64,000 bases of DNA from Paramecium tetraurelia. Lineage: Eukaryota > Ciliophora > Oligohymenophorea > Peniculida > Parameciidae. The translations under genes and the position numbers were made by a program. Location of the stretch: contig NW_001799044.1 of assembly GCF_000165425.1 (NCBI RefSeq), positions 309,205-373,204 on the forward strand. Direction: 5' to 3'. The first letter of the stretch is position 1; each line of letters starts with the position of its first letter. The notes beneath the pieces are model-generated. The model saw only the letters and a program-made list of their open reading frames with translations, had not been told where the DNA came from and ran no database searches. Shown here piece by piece: positions 42,983 through 52,625 of this stretch.

Positions 42983-45350
42983 TCATAGGTTAATTAATTA
43001 TTCAGACAAATCCTTAATTTTATCAACACTCTTAGTGATTTCTATTTCGAAGTGTAGAATTTTGTAGATTACATAAATTATCTACGGATTTTTTGTATTA
43101 AGTAACTTATTTTAAATTAAATCGTCTATCTCTTCTTAATCTTTATCATTCAATTCTTCTTAAGACTAATGAATTATTATAGTAAATTTACATTTAATTT
43201 TGTCCTTAAGAAATTGATGACTTCTTCAAATAACTTTTATCCTAGATCCTGAATGCATTCTTTTCGTTTGATTAACAAGAATTACTCTAACTCCATCTTT
43301 CTTTGTTCAGCTTCCAACAGTTACTTATTGAGATCCATCTTCTTATTGTCAATGCATAATTCAATAAACTGATGACATTGATTTGTTTCTTCAAAAGCTT
43401 CTTCTTGAATAGTATGAATATCTCTATTTTAAATGGGCTGTTCATCTCCATAATCAGCAGTGTCATCCCTACCTTCCTCATCATTTTCACCATCTCCATC
43501 CTCAGGATCTGTGTAAGCCTACAAATGTAAATAATCATAATATACCCCTTTGTCTGAATCTTATTAATATTCACCATTATTTTAACTATCCTACTAAGCT
43601 GCTGTTTTTGGTTCAGATCTAAATTGTACTTAAACATAATGATTAGATTCCATGTCACTTTGAGATTCAACTATAGTTGTGGGTATCTCATCAGCAAATG
43701 AACTTATATCTATGATTTCTCTTTCTGGCTTTATCACTTTAATGTTACTGTCTTCTTTAGCAACAAAGTCAGGTAAATTCAATACCATATCCACTTCCTC
43801 TTATGAGCAGGTTTATTGTTTTATGCTCTTAGTTTTGTTTTATTTAGGTGTTTCTTTAATTTATTCAATCTTATCAGCCTTTCTCAGAGGTTCTTTAACT
43901 TACCTTGCAGGTTCTTTCGGGGCACCTTTTCGAATTCTCTTTTTATCAATTTCTTCTATATTAGGATTTGAAACCTTCGCTTTTACCTATAAAACTGGTT
44001 TTTTTGTAGGTTATACCTGTTAACTTGAGAAAATGTTTTATTATTAATTAGATTGATTATTATTTGATTAAGATGAAATAATAGGAATTTAATTTGGCTG
44101 AAATTCTGCCTTTAATAATTCAGGTCTAGACACAATTATCCGATCGTCTTATTTTTACTTTTGCAATTCAGAAACCTTATCTCTCCAATCCTTATAAAAA
44201 TCATCCATTTTTTAATTTTAATTTTGAACTTGATTCGGAGCAGAGGTAGGTGGAACTTACACAATTTTCTTTTAAACAATTGGAGTATCTCTAACAGGTT
44301 CCTGCTTTCCTTTTACTTCTAATTGCAAATTTTGGGAAGATGTAGATACTTTAGCTTTCAATGGTTTTCCTTATGGAGTACTTTTGACAGAAACAGCAAC
44401 AGGGGTGGCTAAGGACTGCTGAATTTCTTTAGGTTTGCTGATAACTGGAGTTTGAATGGGTTAAATTTATGAGGTCTGTTTTGAATTAGGATGAGGTTAA
44501 TTTAAATTTAATTGCATTCTCAAGTTCTATGCCTATTAAATCAGACCTGTCTAATGTGACATTTATAATTACTTGCTTATTGTAATAATTAGAATGCATC
44601 AGGTCTTTGTCGATAATCCTTTTACAAACACTAATCAATCAATTATCCTAAAGCTGAGGAATACATTTATCCAATTGGTTCATACCTTCCTCTTATTATT
44701 TTGAGTACCAGAGCTCCTTAACTATTAGCTTCGAATGGATGTTTAAAAGTGCATAGTTCATATATAACACAACCTAAGGCCCAAATATCGCTTTTCTCGT
44801 TGTAGGGTTTCTCCTCACACATTTCAGGTGATAAGTAATAAGGAGTTCCTACCATAGTCCTTGCAAAGTTGTTTTGATCATTTAATAATTTAGCCACTCC
44901 AAGGTCTCCAATGCGAACTTGATCTTTGGAGAGAAATATATTCATAGACTTAATGTCTCTATGTAAAACTTTATTCTTATGAAGGAATGCCAATCCTAAT
45001 GTTATTTGGATGAGGAATCTCCACACTTAGTTTTCTGGCAACGGTCTCCCCATTTGCATTTTTAATAGTTTGTGCAAATCCCCCCCCTCACAAAATTCCA
45101 TTACTATACATAACAATTACTTATCTATAAAGGATTCATAATATTTCACAATATATGAACTATCCAATTTAGCTAAGATACTTGCTTCGTTTAAAGCTTC
45201 ATTTTTCATTCTAGCATTCATTTTTGAAATGTTGATTTGCTTCATCACATAAGTTTGCTTATCAGCTTTGCGTCTCACTTTGTACACCTATCCGAAGCTA
45301 CCCTCACCTAACTTATTCAAAATTTCAAATTCATTAAGTTTCGATTCCAT
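42983..45350 (-). CDS. NEK-family kinase with long C-terminal tail, about 770 aa
   Basis: The N-terminal 260 residues form a NIMA-related kinase domain: [88 protein letters not shown] and [20 protein letters not shown]. The DFG is DLG, which is common among NEK kinases. A 26-nt intron at 44547-44572 joins the domain to a tail rich in Pro, Gln and Lys with an acidic patch ([16 protein letters not shown]) and a C-terminal coiled coil ([17 protein letters not shown]). A second intron near 43155 is 26 or 32 nt; both keep the frame, giving 771 or 769 residues. NEKs control cilia length, basal bodies and mitosis. Confidence 0.93.
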
Positions 45351-45432
45351 TAATTTAATAATTTAACAAATAATACCTTGCCAAAATCAATTTCAAAGAG
45401 GAATCCTTCAAATAATATTTCATTATTTAATT

Positions 45433-46635
45433 ATGTAAAAGAAAGAACCCTCAAGCAAACTATATGTCATATATCATGACCCTTGTTTGGATGGGATTTA
45501 CTCCTTGACAGGACTTATATTGCCCATTCTAGTTAAAATCAGAAAGGATAACTGGACTATCCAATAATACTTAGAATTACTCAGGTCAGAACTCCCTAAA
45601 ATATCCAAAGAAATCCAAAAACCCCAAGAGTATAAGCAAGAAATTATATATCAAGATGAGCCAATTGAAAATCAAAATATGGGCTTCTTCTATCCAACTA
45701 TATAGGACCTGTGTTATATGCCCATTAGATTGAGTGAAGATAATAATGAAGTTTAGAAAATAATCAAATTTTTAAATGATGATTCTAAATCCTCAATTTT
45801 GATTATTGTAGACTATTTCGGAAGAACTTGGGATAATTTGATACTGCTAACCAAGAGGTTTCAATATGTGATAGTTGTTGATCACCACTAAACATGTGTA
45901 AATGCTATTCCAGATTTCAAAAGAGAGAAATATTAAGCCCTGAATAAAGTGTCAGGAGTAGACAATCTATTCATGCTAGTAAGCATAGACAAGGCTGCAT
46001 GTCTCTTAGTGCAAGACTTTCAAGAATAAATCTTTTAAACTAAATATACCTCATTGCTTCCTCCAAATATTGGAACCAAATTTACATTATTTACCAAATA
46101 CATTTCAGATAATGACTTATTTGTGTTATAATATCCTGAAACAGAACCTTTGTAAATGGCTATAATGAGAAGAAGGTTGTAATTTGATGTTCGGTAGAAT
46201 CCAGCAATCTTTTATAAATTACTAGAATTCGACTTCGATTTTTTAATTAAGGAAGGATAACAACTAGCCATCTAAAGAAATAAGAAAGTTGAAAATTTAG
46301 TTAAGAATCGTAAAACAGTAGTATTTGGGAAGGATGCAGTAGGCTATGCACTCTATTGTGATGACTTAAGCATTATGAATCCCTTAGGCAACGCCTTAGG
46401 CATTTTGGCCATGAGGTCAGGTGATCAAAATTTAGGTGCGGTTTACCATGATGATAAAAGCAATTCTACTTAGTATAAAATTCATTTGAGGTCAGCTCAT
46501 CATGACGAAAATGGGGTTCTGCTCAATAGATTTAGATGCGATGTTTTAGCTGAATCCTTTGGTGGAGGAGGTCATGTTGGTGCAGCATCTCTGTACATGA
46601 AAAAAAAGGAATGGAAAAAATTAATGTTTGAATGA
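45433..46635 (+). CDS. DHH-superfamily phosphoesterase, 400 aa
   Basis: An uninterrupted frame of exactly 401 codons. The metal-binding motifs are present in order: YHDPCLDGIYS (H-x-D-x-D-G-like) near residue 20, VDYFGRTWDN near 135, and the name-giving VDHHQTC near 155. Near the C-terminus FGGGGHVGAAS is the GGGH motif of the DHHA1 substrate-binding domain. Enzymes of this group hydrolyse phosphodiester bonds in nano-RNA, pAp or cyclic dinucleotides (NrnA/GdpP type in bacteria) or pyrophosphate. Which substrate applies here cannot be told from sequence. No targeting signal is obvious. It is read divergently from the NEK gene across 82 bp. Confidence 0.85.
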
Positions 46636-47382: not shown

Positions 47383-48436
47383 TTCACTTCATTGAAAATA
47401 TTACAATGGAAATCCTATATTTGGTTAAAACATGTAGAAGGGATAGAAGAGTTATATTGGTTAAACGCTTGGGAGAATTGGAGATATAAGATGCTGCTCG
47501 TTAAAGGTGTTGAGGCTTTCATTTAAAGGACTTAAATTTGTTTAAACTTTTTCTATCTGACTTGCTAATTCGTCAGGATCACAAGTATTATATTTTTTGA
47601 TTAACTTTAAGATTTTCTTCTCTGTTTGAGAATTTAATTTATTCTAAGATATTTTAAAAATATACTAAATGCATTTTTTTTGCAATTTTTTTCATAATCG
47701 AATTATAGCAGTTCTTAATTTTATTATCAGTCCGCCCTTGCATCTTTTTGGCAATACCAGACCAATTTTTGTTCAATTCATTAGCGTGAAGCATAAGTGC
47801 ATATTTTTCTTAATAGGTGAAAGGCTTTCTATTGAATATTAATCAGATTTACTTATTGATTTTGGAATTAATCACATTATTATACCGTTCACGTATCTAC
47901 TTTTAATATCTTAAATTTTTTGTTAAGTAAATAAATTCCTCTGCTATTACAGTCCAATTGTTGCTTGGATATTTCCTTCGTTGATATTTATAAATACTAT
48001 CTTAATTGGATCAATATTTTGTCTTCCTCTGGGGTCCATGGCAGTTATTTCAAGCTTTGTTTTAATAGACTCATCCATTTTACTAAAAGAAATTACTCTG
48101 GAACATCTAATACTTTTGCCAGATATTCGAAGACTCCTTTATGATGCTAGACATAAGCTTTTTAAATACCAATTCATAGAATTTTAAGTTCCTCTTCTCG
48201 GCTAATTTAGCAACACACCATATAAACAAGTATTTATCCTTTTGATGCCATTTGCTTCGATTGCTTTATTGGTTAAAATGCACCTTAAATTCATTGCTTA
48301 AATAATGTTCTAATTATTAATATGTCATTTTCTGATTTGGGAACTTGACAATTTACTTAAGTTGTTCCTCATTTAAGTCTACGTCTTTAGAATCTCCTAT
48401 TTCTTACAGGAATTCAGTCCATTTTAAAGATTTCAT
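47383..48436 (-). CDS. Myb-like DNA-binding protein, 320 aa
   Basis: Four introns, 48147-48169, 47976-47997, 47829-47852 and 47644-47665 (23, 22, 24, 22 nt), give an exact 321-codon frame. Two Myb repeats are adjacent in the middle: LPWTPEEDKILIQLRQ with NNWTVIAEEF, then KKPFTYQEKYALMLHANEL with NWSGIAKKMQGRTDNKIKN. The second carries the strongest signature, I-A-K-x-(M/L)-x-G-R-T-D-N-x-(I/V)-K-N, as in R2R3 Myb recognition helices. The N-terminal 150 residues are helical and unrecognised; the C-terminal part ends with an aromatic-rich stretch (YPFYMFQPNIGFPLQ). Likely a nuclear transcription factor. Confidence 0.88.
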
Positions 48437-49085: not shown

Positions 49086-49642
49086 TCAAGCACTTTGATT
49101 TGGACTAACAATTAATTATTTCTTGCTTTAAAATGCTTCTCTTGCATCAAAGATTTCTCTGTCATCCACTCCTAACATTTTAAGAGTTTGATCTAAAAGA
49201 TTTACAATTACGCTAAATTGAAGTTCTGTTATATTTAGTTTGCAATGATCTGAAAAATTTTATTATGCCGGCGGTTTTCCTCCAAATAAATATAAAACTA
49301 TAGCATTAAAATGCTATGAAACTTTCTAAATTATTATATTAAAATAATATACACTCTTTTCAACATTCTAGAAAAGGGACTTTAAATCCTTATTATTAGA
49401 AATACGATCGAATAATAATGATATCATGGGTTAAATTGCTTACTCTCCTCCCAGTCTCTCAATTAAGGGGACTTTCTATATACTTGCATCCAAGATCTTA
49501 GCTAATAAATCAAAAAACTATTACCACTCCCTCTATTATCTGAATTCAATACTTTTATACCAACAATACCAATAGCAGCAGCAACAGCTACAATTGCAAC
49601 AGCTGCTTTATTGTTTTCTATAAAGTTTTGAATTTTTTGCAT
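49086..49642 (-). CDS. membrane-anchored truncated haemoglobin, 169 aa
   Basis: Introns at 49533-49552 (20 nt) and 49326-49352 (27 nt) give an exact 170-codon frame. The N-terminus (MQKIQNFIENNK) runs into a hydrophobic helix (AAVAIVAVAAAIGIVGIK, about residues 13-30). The rest is a truncated (2/2) globin: IERLGGEQAIQPMISLLFDRI (A and B helices), LKSLFQNVE, VSQHFNAIVLYLFGGKPP (E helix and the GG turn), then DHCKLNITELQFSVIVNLL with the proximal F8 histidine, and LKMLGVDDREIFDA. The usual B10 tyrosine of FY appears as Phe. Known Paramecium haemoglobins are soluble single domains, so the anchor is unusual. Possible roles are oxygen or nitric oxide chemistry at a membrane, perhaps mitochondrial. 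Start codons of this gene and of bL19m are 22 bp apart. Confidence 0.85.
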
Positions 49643-49664
49643 AAATATAATTTAATATAAATAT
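49643..49664. promoter_or_regulatory. 22-bp bidirectional promoter between globin and bL19m
   Basis: The start codons of two divergent, well-supported genes are separated by only 22 bases of pure A/T-type sequence. Both transcripts must initiate within this gap or within each other's coding region. No defined motif is recognisable. Confidence 0.5.
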
Positions 49665-50479
49665 ATGATTGGAATTTACAGATCATTAGTAAACACCATT
49701 CCTAGATTCAACATAGTTTATGGCTATGTACCAAAGAGGTCACCCTTTGATAAGACTCATTACATTGAGAATTACATACCCAGATAAATTGCTTACCCCA
49801 AATCAAGAAGACCTAGATTACCGTAATGGGATGATGAATAAACAATTTGGCCAGTCATCCCTCCATCACCCATTTTGCCAAGAAAAAAGTTGTTATAATA
49901 ATTAGAAAATGAAGAATATGAAAGACTACAAATTATCAAAGTAATTCCATTCAATAATTAAAGCCTATGACATTCCCTGATTTTAGAGTGGGAGATGTAA
50001 TTCAAGTGAAATGGATTCACAATATGAGTGAACCTACTATGAATACTTACTAAGGTTTATGCGTTGGAAAAAGAAGATCAAACTCATTAGATGCTTCATT
50101 CAAATTTATTTTCAGATATTGTGGTGTGGAAGTTTTCATGAATGTCAAACAAAATTCGCCTTATTTAAAAGAAGTTACTATTCTTAAGAAGGGCACAGGT
50201 AATATTAGAAATAAAATGTCCATATTTAAAAAGAAGTTGTCTAAACAGCAATTAATTACTCCTCTCATGAAAAAAGGAAAACCTGTTAGAAGAAGGGATG
50301 ATCCAATTCGTAAGAGAAGTTCAAGATCAAGAACCTCTATTTCGATGCTAAAATTAATAGATGATCCATTATTGGTGGAAAAACCTGTTGAGAAAAAAAC
50401 AAAAATAATACATAAAAAGAAATAAGCAGAACAAGAAGCAATTGTAGAGCCAAATGATAACACTAATAAATAATAATGA
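49665..50479 (+). CDS. MRPL19: mitochondrial ribosomal protein bL19m, 263 aa
   Basis: One 23-nt intron at 49941-49963 gives an exact 264-codon frame. A basic N-terminal extension (MIGIYRSLVNTIPRFNIVYG) is suited to mitochondrial import. From about residue 105 the bL19 core follows: FRVGDVIQVKWIHNMSE, YQGLCVGKRRSNSLDASFKF, IFRYCGVEVFMNVKQNSPYL, and KEVTILKKGTGNIRNKM. bL19 sits at the interface of large and small subunits. Bacterial bL19 is about 115 residues; the extra N- and C-terminal parts, the latter very basic (KKGKPVRRRDDPIRKRSSRS), are typical of enlarged ciliate mitoribosome proteins. An open frame on the opposite strand is its shadow. Confidence 0.88.
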
Positions 50480-51179: not shown

Positions 51180-52625
51180 TCAATCAATTTGATCCAATAA
51201 TTTATCTGATTACTTCTCTACTTACTTAGAGTCTTCTTATTTTGATGTCGTAGTTGCCTTACAATTGACCTTATGTTTTGGCCAATCACCAACTTAGCAA
51301 TCTTTGCTACAATACCACACTTATTTGCAACGAGAACATCTCTTTGTAGCTTCCTTTGTACATTTCTCACATTTAAATCCATCAATAATACCTTCAAACA
51401 CTGTATTTGAATATAGTTCAGCCATTCTTTTGATATCTATTAAATTAATAATATTGAATACCTTCTTTTATACTTGGATCATCAATTTGGAAATACTCTT
51501 CTTTTTATTTTTAAGCAATAGAGCTCCAATTCTTATCTTTGCATATTGCTAAACGTAATTCTGGCAATTATTGAACTACAATAGTATTTTTACTCTAAGT
51601 TTGTACTTACATAAGGGATAACTCTTCCAAAGACCTCAACATATCCACAAGTTGGGGGATCTAATCCAATAACAATTCATTCATAAATTTCCTTAATCTT
51701 AATAAATTACTCTTTTTAAAATCATTCAATTCATATTTCCTTCTGCTTTCTGGGTCCATGAATAAATTATATATTGTAATCCACAATTAGGCTTCAATTT
51801 TAGGTAGTTTACTATAATCTTCCTTATTTAAAGTAACCCACTTTGATTATTCAAATACTTCTCTTTCATTATTAGGATTAATTCTTAACCAAGGCTTCTC
51901 TTCAATCAAGGGGATTAGTAAAAAGAAAAAGTCATTTTCAACAATAATTTGGTGTAGGATATTAATTGGCAAATGCTTTATATGATCAGTTATGAATCTT
52001 ATAATGCTCAGACACATCATTTGAATTTAAAACTCAACATTCTAAAATTGCTCATCCATTTCAGCTTCTTTCGTTCTATTCTTATAATAATCAATGCTTT
52101 TTTTCTCAATCTTTTTTGCAGGTGGCCTAAATCTTTTTTACAATTCAGTACTTCTATAGTAAAGCTGTTAATTTTCGATAGCAATAATCCACTATCTCAA
52201 GAATATAACCTTCTGATGCTTCTATCGAAGTTCTGTGAAATAAGCAAATTTACAATAAATTGCAGACAATAGCTTCGTGTTAAAGTACTGTGTAAGATCT
52301 AATTGATGACAATTCAGTAAAATGAGATTTCAAATAAGGGAACACATATTGCTTCCACATCTCAGTCATTATTAAATCATAGATTAATGGTTTGATTTTA
52401 TCAAAGGTACAGAAGGCTTCCATAATGAATTCGTCAGATCTAGTTATGGCATTTATGTGTGCTTAGAAATTAAGTTTTTATAAAACCTCATCTTATGCGA
52501 ACCACCTATATATTAAGATATTCTTACTTTTTGCATCCTAATTCAGTAATCTCAAATATTTGAAGACCTTCAATATAATGCTCAGCCTCATATGCTGTCA
52601 ATATATCAGTCAATTAAATATTCAT
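51180..52625 (-). CDS. ZMYND10: ZMYND10, axonemal dynein preassembly factor
   Basis: The N-terminus matches ZMYND10 (BLU) closely in layout: EAEHYIEGLQIFEITELGC, a 22-nt intron at 52506-52527, then KWFAQDEVLQKLNFQAHINA, FDKIKPLIYDLIMTEMW and KQYVFPYLKSHF. The C-terminus is a MYND zinc finger, CEKCTKEATKRCSRCKQVWY, CSKDCQVGDWPKHKVNC, ending KLLDQID. Total length, about 450 residues, equals that of animal ZMYND10. The protein works in the cytoplasm with chaperones and LRRC6 to assemble outer and inner dynein arms before transport into cilia; loss causes ciliary dyskinesia in humans. Its presence fits a heavily ciliated cell. Remaining introns in the middle were not all placed. Confidence 0.9.

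Follow-up and report, generated by a model that had tools for sequence, protein, structure and literature searches.

Does Paramecium tetraurelia possess a truncated globin that is held at a membrane by a helix of its own, and what kind of haem chemistry might such a protein carry out there? The question is raised by a short gene in a window of 64,000 nucleotides (the whole stretch of DNA analysed, which lies on contig C91 of the searched genome of 69 Mb and 231 contigs). A preliminary description of the locus had proposed that a hydrophobic helix at the N-terminus precedes a truncated globin, with a proximal His, an unusual Phe at position B10 and a gap of 22 bp to the start codon of the mitochondrial ribosomal protein bL19m. 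Here we follow up these claims; the published papers cited are drawn on in excerpt.

Gene model and N-terminal helix

First, the locus can be read as a single chain in which helix and globin are joined (Table 1). The frames used in the window are open when TAA and TAG are read as Gln, that is, in the ciliate code, and the globin gene extends on the minus strand from a start ATG at 49642 to a stop TGA at 49088-49086. Both introns have GTA...TAG ends and their removal leads to an uninterrupted protein. Intron 2 is a multiple of three and stop-free, both in the window copy and in the duplicate of the gene described below; introns of this type are said to be rare in Paramecium, and a retained intron 2 would add nine residues immediately before the E helix. 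A coding role for this segment was rejected, with the spliced protein scoring 22.1 bits against the Pfam family Bac_globin (PF01152), just over the cut-off of 21, compared to 14.6 bits for an unspliced reading that was also without exon 1. We read intron 2 as a real intron because splicing gives the usual CD-E length as well as the better Pfam score.

Table 1. Positions in the window of the globin gene, its parts, its haem-pocket residues and its divergent neighbour
Feature	Position	Strand	Remark
Truncated globin gene, whole	49086..49642	-	168 aa from 3 exons, read in the ciliate code (table 6)
Exon 1 (residues 1-39), with the start codon, a short polar N-terminal stretch and the hydrophobic helix	49525..49642	-	
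Hydrophobic helix, residues 13-29 (Ala/Val/Ile/Gly), then Lys30	49556..49606	-	Kyte-Doolittle 19-mer 2.57
Intron 1 (23 nt, GTAATAG...TTAG), separating the helix exon from the globin	49502..49524	-	Required for frame
Exon 2, from the linker through A helix, Gly-Gly and B helix to the CD region	49353..49501	-	
Intron 2, 27 nt	49326..49352	-	
Exon 3: E helix through C-terminus and stop	49086..49325	-	
Phe70 at B10, where most truncated globins have Tyr	49410..49412	-	Alignment
His94, position E10, candidate distal haem ligand	49311..49313	-	Alignment
His116, position F8, proximal haem ligand	49245..49247	-	Invariant in 8/8 and 27/27 rows (alignments)
Spacer of 22 bp between divergent start codons, possible shared promoter	49643..49664	.	
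Mitochondrial ribosomal protein bL19m gene, head-to-head with globin	49665..50479	+	PF01245, E 2.7e-6

The start of the protein is constrained by the distribution of Met codons. After residue 1 the next in-frame Met is Met65, which lies within the B helix of the globin fold; a transcript beginning downstream of the helix would therefore be without a start codon for an intact globin. Further in-frame ATGs are found upstream of 49642, at 49699 and 49714, both of which overlap the bL19m gene, and their use would extend the N-terminus and retain the helix. The preliminary description had named transcription starting past the helix as an outcome that would speak against a tether, and judged from the letters of the DNA this was not borne out.

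The most hydrophobic 19-mer of the helix spans residues 14-32 and has a Kyte-Doolittle value of 2.57, with a maximum of 2.45 in the duplicate. A value of 2.44 is reached by 31 of 1807 open, ATG-started frames of 39 codons (1.7%), a background that consists of overlapping frames from both strands of the window and of five pieces of the duplicate's contig, C171, and that includes both globin copies. Since 1.7% of frames are equally hydrophobic, the helix by itself is unremarkable and it is its conservation, considered below, that is remarkable. We also considered that the helix was borrowed from another protein; however, a search of the genome with the exon 1 peptide, at E up to 10, returned no match besides the two copies and thus no donor protein was seen. 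Helix and globin together are predicted to form a single-pass membrane protein with an N-terminal signal-anchor, although the anchor helix could be cleaved off.

A conserved duplicate and the bL19m neighbour

Second, the genome contains another copy of this gene in which the same architecture is found. The copy on contig C171 retains the helix, both introns at equal lengths, and the His residues at F8 and E10, and is also arranged head-to-head with bL19m. It is part of a larger region of similarity, in which 32.6-56.5 kb of the window is collinear, in inverted orientation, with 224.6-192 kb of C171 (8 blocks longer than 150 bp, 73-92% identity), a pattern consistent with whole-genome duplication. 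Intron 1 has the same place and length in both copies, with 19 of its 23 bases identical, and 20 of the 27 bases of intron 2 are shared. Relatives lacking both the helix and the His of the F region had been named beforehand as evidence against the tethered globin, and within this genome the relative that we find has the helix as well as the proximal His.

The two copies have diverged in a markedly uneven manner. Exon 1 carries about 11 synonymous and about 3 non-synonymous changes (dN/dS 0.058, Nei-Gojobori), compared to about 17 and about 32 in residues 40-168 (dN/dS 0.465, Nei-Gojobori), a contrast with a Fisher p of 0.005 that is drawn from two sequences only and with an uneven dS (0.59 in exon 1, 0.25 in the rest). 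About 1 non-synonymous change falls in residues 12-32 and about 3 in residues 1-39, the flanks of the core being as conserved as the core itself. In this two-copy comparison no part of the globin gene is as constrained as the helix exon, which argues that the helix is no neutral appendage. The proposed order, an N-terminal hydrophobic helix followed by a truncated globin, is thus supported, with a core at residues 13-29 that is retained in the duplicate and under strong purifying selection. At the other end of the protein, the last 60 residues (109-168) differ by about 5 synonymous and about 25 non-synonymous changes (dN/dS about 1.5), which argues for weak or changing constraint on the C-terminal third. 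This could reflect a loosened haem pocket, but the retention of both haem-side His residues speaks the other way.

The assignment of the neighbour as bL19m also held up, on the basis of its PF01245 match and of a pairing that is retained on C171, and so did the reported start-to-start gap of 22 bp, which is preserved in the duplicate. All 22 bases of this spacer are identical between the copies, whereas the two introns together match at 39 of 50 bases (p 0.015), and this identity suggests a shared promoter of globin and bL19m. A sigma-70 scan of the spacer gave nothing, although such a model is unsuited to eukaryotic DNA. Elsewhere in the window we noted a weak match to the DHH family at 45010-46635 on the plus strand (18.5 bits, cut-off 28.1), weak Myb-like matches below the cut-off at 47889-48074 on the minus strand (about 17 bits) and a MYND finger at 51180-51581 on the minus strand (50.2 bits).

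Globin fold, relatives and distal haem pocket

Third, the alignments indicate that the part of the protein that follows the linker, of about 20 residues, is a 2/2 truncated globin of group I (N). The spliced duplicate reaches 28.8 bits against PF01152, and the best match in the PDB is the group-1 truncated haemoglobin of Tetrahymena, 3aq7 (E 3.3e-9); there was no match for the window copy in NCBIfam and none in PHROGs. The features that define group I are present, namely the F8 His, a Phe at CD1 and two Gly-Gly turns, one behind the A helix and the other at the E-F corner; the proximal His that had been read from the sequence is confirmed by alignment as His116. The loop before the F helix is short, with 10 residues in the window copy and 8 in the duplicate, compared to 12 in four soluble rows that share the Gly-Gly turn of the pair or are closest to it, and the Tyr/Trp-x-Gly motif, which like Tyr B10 is common but not defining in group I, is absent. 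In the phylogeny, the two copies group together with full support, their stem is 3.51 changes per column long, and the tree links them to no particular soluble family among the group-I globins. Given a score just over the cut-off, the long stem, the short pre-F loop and the fast C-terminus, haem binding by the domain is inferred and not secure.

Besides the pair, we identified 22 globin loci in this genome, 21 from a whole-genome search with PF01152 and one weak locus from a protein search. This count is a lower bound because the family search, which works exon by exon, did not list the divergent pair itself, and further divergent globins may be missing. No comparable helix is present in the readings of the 22 loci, in which the highest 19-mer is 1.44. 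A Met is found at most 15 residues from the A-helix Gly-Gly turn in 17 of them; in five (L019, L027, L033, L035 and L036) the start is unclear or the globin lies inside a longer reading. The script behind the locus models selects for the highest similarity to Tetrahymena globin, so upstream exons may be missed, chiefly in the five unclear cases.

Several of these loci are of interest in their own right. L027 (C50:100629-100970) and L035 (C174:285291-285605) have a divergent truncated-globin-like domain with an aligned proximal His inside a larger protein; their long readings matched truncated globins plus weak unrelated chains, and by eye the flanks may hold additional decayed globin repeats. 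Two further paralogues, L029 (C45:102036-102200) and L033 (C175:199830-199979), have readings that look broken; L029 has almost the same sequence as the intact L030, which lies on a 10.9-kb contig, and is perhaps an assembly or allelic copy. Another altered distal pocket, with Leu at both B10 and E7, is seen in the pair L032 and L036 (C204 and C193), in which, by eye, an upstream exon also adds a polar stretch at the N-terminus. Outside this genome, a viral contig collection that was searched with the spliced protein and with a bacterial relative yielded no relative, and in a non-ciliate genome contig collection, with a soluble paralogue as query, 338 pattern matches included five bacterial truncated globins and none from a ciliate. 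A short contig of a Gammaproteobacteria MAG (L037) carries three tandem group-I truncated globin domains in a single open frame.

The residues of the pocket were compared in a MAFFT alignment of 27 rows, which includes 19 of the 22 other loci (L020, L029 and L033 were dropped for broken or unresolved models). In this alignment the pair has Phe at B10, Val (window copy) or Ala (duplicate) at E7, His at E10 and Phe at E11. The combination of Tyr B10, Gln E7 and a polar E11 is absent from the pair; in usual group-I globins, hydrogen bonds from these three positions stabilise haem-bound ligands (PMC7082302). Among the 19 other rows of this genome, 17 carry Tyr at B10 and 2 carry Leu, the F8 His is present in every row and the E10 His in none, such that the latter occurs in 2 of 21 rows, those of the pair. 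The placement of the E10 His was also obtained with HMMER, which pairs residues 52-107 of the duplicate with residues 4-59 of 1s69, in stretches of equal length, and thereby sets residue 94 on His46 of the Synechocystis cyanoglobin GlbN. HMMER sets the same residue on the Lys of THB1 as well, and MAFFT puts both the THB1 Lys and the GlbN His in the E10 column. The Phe at B10 singled out in the preliminary description is residue 70, is found in both copies and is indeed unusual; however, that account of the pocket was incomplete in leaving out the E10 His and the altered E7 and E11, and it is these that weigh more for the mechanism than Phe B10 alone.

The E10 residue may act as an iron ligand and may promote electron transfer (PMC11904497), and Lys E10 is a ligand in THB1, THB2 and THB4 (PMC7082302). 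Truncated globins with E10-ligated hexacoordinate haem, such as GlbN and THB1, combine His or Lys at E10 with His at F8, and the pair has this combination. His or Lys at E10 nevertheless calls for caution over hexacoordination (PMC4720485): Chlamydomonas THB11 has Lys E10 yet is five-coordinate when reduced (PMC7082302), so a basic E10 residue alone is insufficient for ligation. With these reservations, the pocket of the pair would hold a bis-His haem with poor stabilisation of oxygen.

Several known systems resemble the pair in part. The group-1 truncated haemoglobin of Tetrahymena pyriformis (3aq5-3aq9) shares the group-I layout, the proximal His and the CD1 Phe, but has no helix and, in the 3aq5 row, Tyr B10 and Gln at E7, E10 and E11; in the alignment 3aq7 itself has Phe at B10, and we take it to be the Tyr-to-Phe B10 mutant. 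GlbN (1s69, 1rtx) resembles the pair in having His at E10 and F8, with E10 as its sixth haem ligand, but is bacterial and has no helix. Membrane globins are also known outside the truncated family: fish globin X and the membrane globin of the crab Carcinus are 3/3 globins, and a nematode globin with seven helices is likewise not a truncated globin. Globin X is membrane-bound and hexacoordinate, and both it and the Carcinus protein are, like the pair, attached to the membrane N-terminally, but they are held by acyl groups rather than by a helix (PMC3176823). The protein of the pair starts MQKIQ and lacks an N-terminal Met-Gly acylation site; by analogy it may work like the acylated membrane globins without being one. 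The nematode protein joins a globin and seven putative transmembrane helices in one chain (PMC1457004), with a receptor-like N-terminal part in place of the single helix found here. Finally, a truncated haemoglobin of cable bacteria belongs to a larger electron-transfer protein outside the cytosol, but is fused to a pentahaem cytochrome (PMC11976967) and not to a lone helix.

Candidate function, location and competing readings

Taken on the sequence evidence, the protein is probably a membrane-bound haem protein that handles redox chemistry or nitric oxide rather than an oxygen store. For the more precise reading, a single-pass signal-anchor protein with a bis-His b-type haem and electron-transfer chemistry at the membrane, we see about an even chance. 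The signal-anchor helix would place the globin, via its linker, at one membrane, where His E10 would bind the iron distally when no gas is bound and give a bis-His b-type haem as in GlbN. This haem would work by electron transfer, being reduced by a membrane reductase, and its role at the membrane would be the turnover of NO, nitrite or peroxide and not the storage of oxygen; the chemistry would thus be that of an NO dioxygenase or a nitrite or peroxide reaction coupled to the reductase. A review notes that reduction by membrane-bound reductases may be easier for a protein associated with the membrane (PMC3820574). The membrane-tethered bis-His reading is supported because helix and globin share one frame without an intervening start codon, because the duplicate retains the helix, the introns and both His residues, because dN/dS in exon 1 is far lower than in the rest, and because helix and E10 His are confined to the pair among the globins of this genome that were compared. 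Against it stand the insecure haem binding and an E7 residue that differs between the copies.

Another reading, which we consider unlikely, treats the helix as a signal or sorting peptide that is cut off and leaves a soluble mature globin in a lumen, either of the secretory pathway or of the mitochondrial intermembrane space. The N-terminal position and, judged by eye, the mildly positive N-region and small residues that could allow cleavage after the helix agree with such a peptide; however, the core is uninterrupted over 17 residues, which is long for a cleavable signal, and is directly followed by a positive residue (Lys30), which is a feature of signal-anchors. In addition, a cleavable signal does not sit well with a sequence that is as conserved outside the core as within it.

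Somewhat less likely still, the domain could be a structural globin-like module without haem in a membrane complex, comparable to COXTT2 of Tetrahymena complex IV, which is reported to have an N-terminal globin-like domain at the interface of complexes I and IV (PMC10060162) and is an example of a globin fold in a mitochondrial membrane complex of a ciliate. The shortened pre-F loop and the fast-evolving C-terminal third would fit a module of this kind, but the F8 and E10 His residues are retained while neighbouring residues change. The architecture differs as well: COXTT2 carries its globin-like domain at the N-terminus of a larger subunit (PMC10060162), whereas in the pair a helix precedes the globin and the chain stops behind it. 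Moreover, at E up to 10 none of the matches listed (in one list the best 60 of 63) was a chain named for a respiratory complex of Tetrahymena, complex IV included, and no sequence kinship with COXTT2 was seen among these matches. That we are dealing with an ordinary soluble oxygen-storage truncated globin, its helix an annotation error from a downstream start or an exon of something else, is very improbable: solved ciliate truncated globins are soluble domains and comparably hydrophobic frames do occur in the background, but no Met lies between the helix and the B helix, the helix exon is conserved despite many synonymous changes, and the usual B10/E7/E11 set is absent.

For the tethered haem protein, the mitochondrial membrane is a first guess as the site of the anchor, which rests on the bL19m neighbour and on weak anchor features; a mildly hydrophobic anchor with a Lys directly after it fits a mitochondrial signal anchor. 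Secretory or peroxisomal membranes are possible alternatives. A fuller scenario, in which a soluble group-I truncated globin has become, in a ciliate lineage, a membrane-anchored bis-His b-type cytochrome that is co-expressed with mitochondrial translation from a shared 22-bp promoter and serves NO detoxification or electron shuttling by the respiratory chain on a mitochondrial membrane, seems to us rather doubtful as a whole.

Among the matches listed in the open PMC literature, taken as titles and abstract starts and with subscription papers mostly outside, there is no report of a ciliate truncated globin with its own transmembrane helix, which is not proof of absence; the membrane-bound globins met there are acylated animal proteins, membrane-associating bacterial ones and the seven-helix nematode protein, none of them a truncated globin with a single helix. 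In Paramecium, the helix and the rebuilt distal pocket coincide in one paralogue pair and neither is seen in the other globin rows of the genome that were compared; this confinement makes the purpose of membrane attachment testable within one organism. Paramecium is amenable to RNAi and tagging, which opens a direct experimental route to where the protein sits and what it does. If the fuller scenario is true, a transmembrane helix would be a further independent eukaryotic route, beside acylation, to the combination of membrane attachment and hexacoordination.
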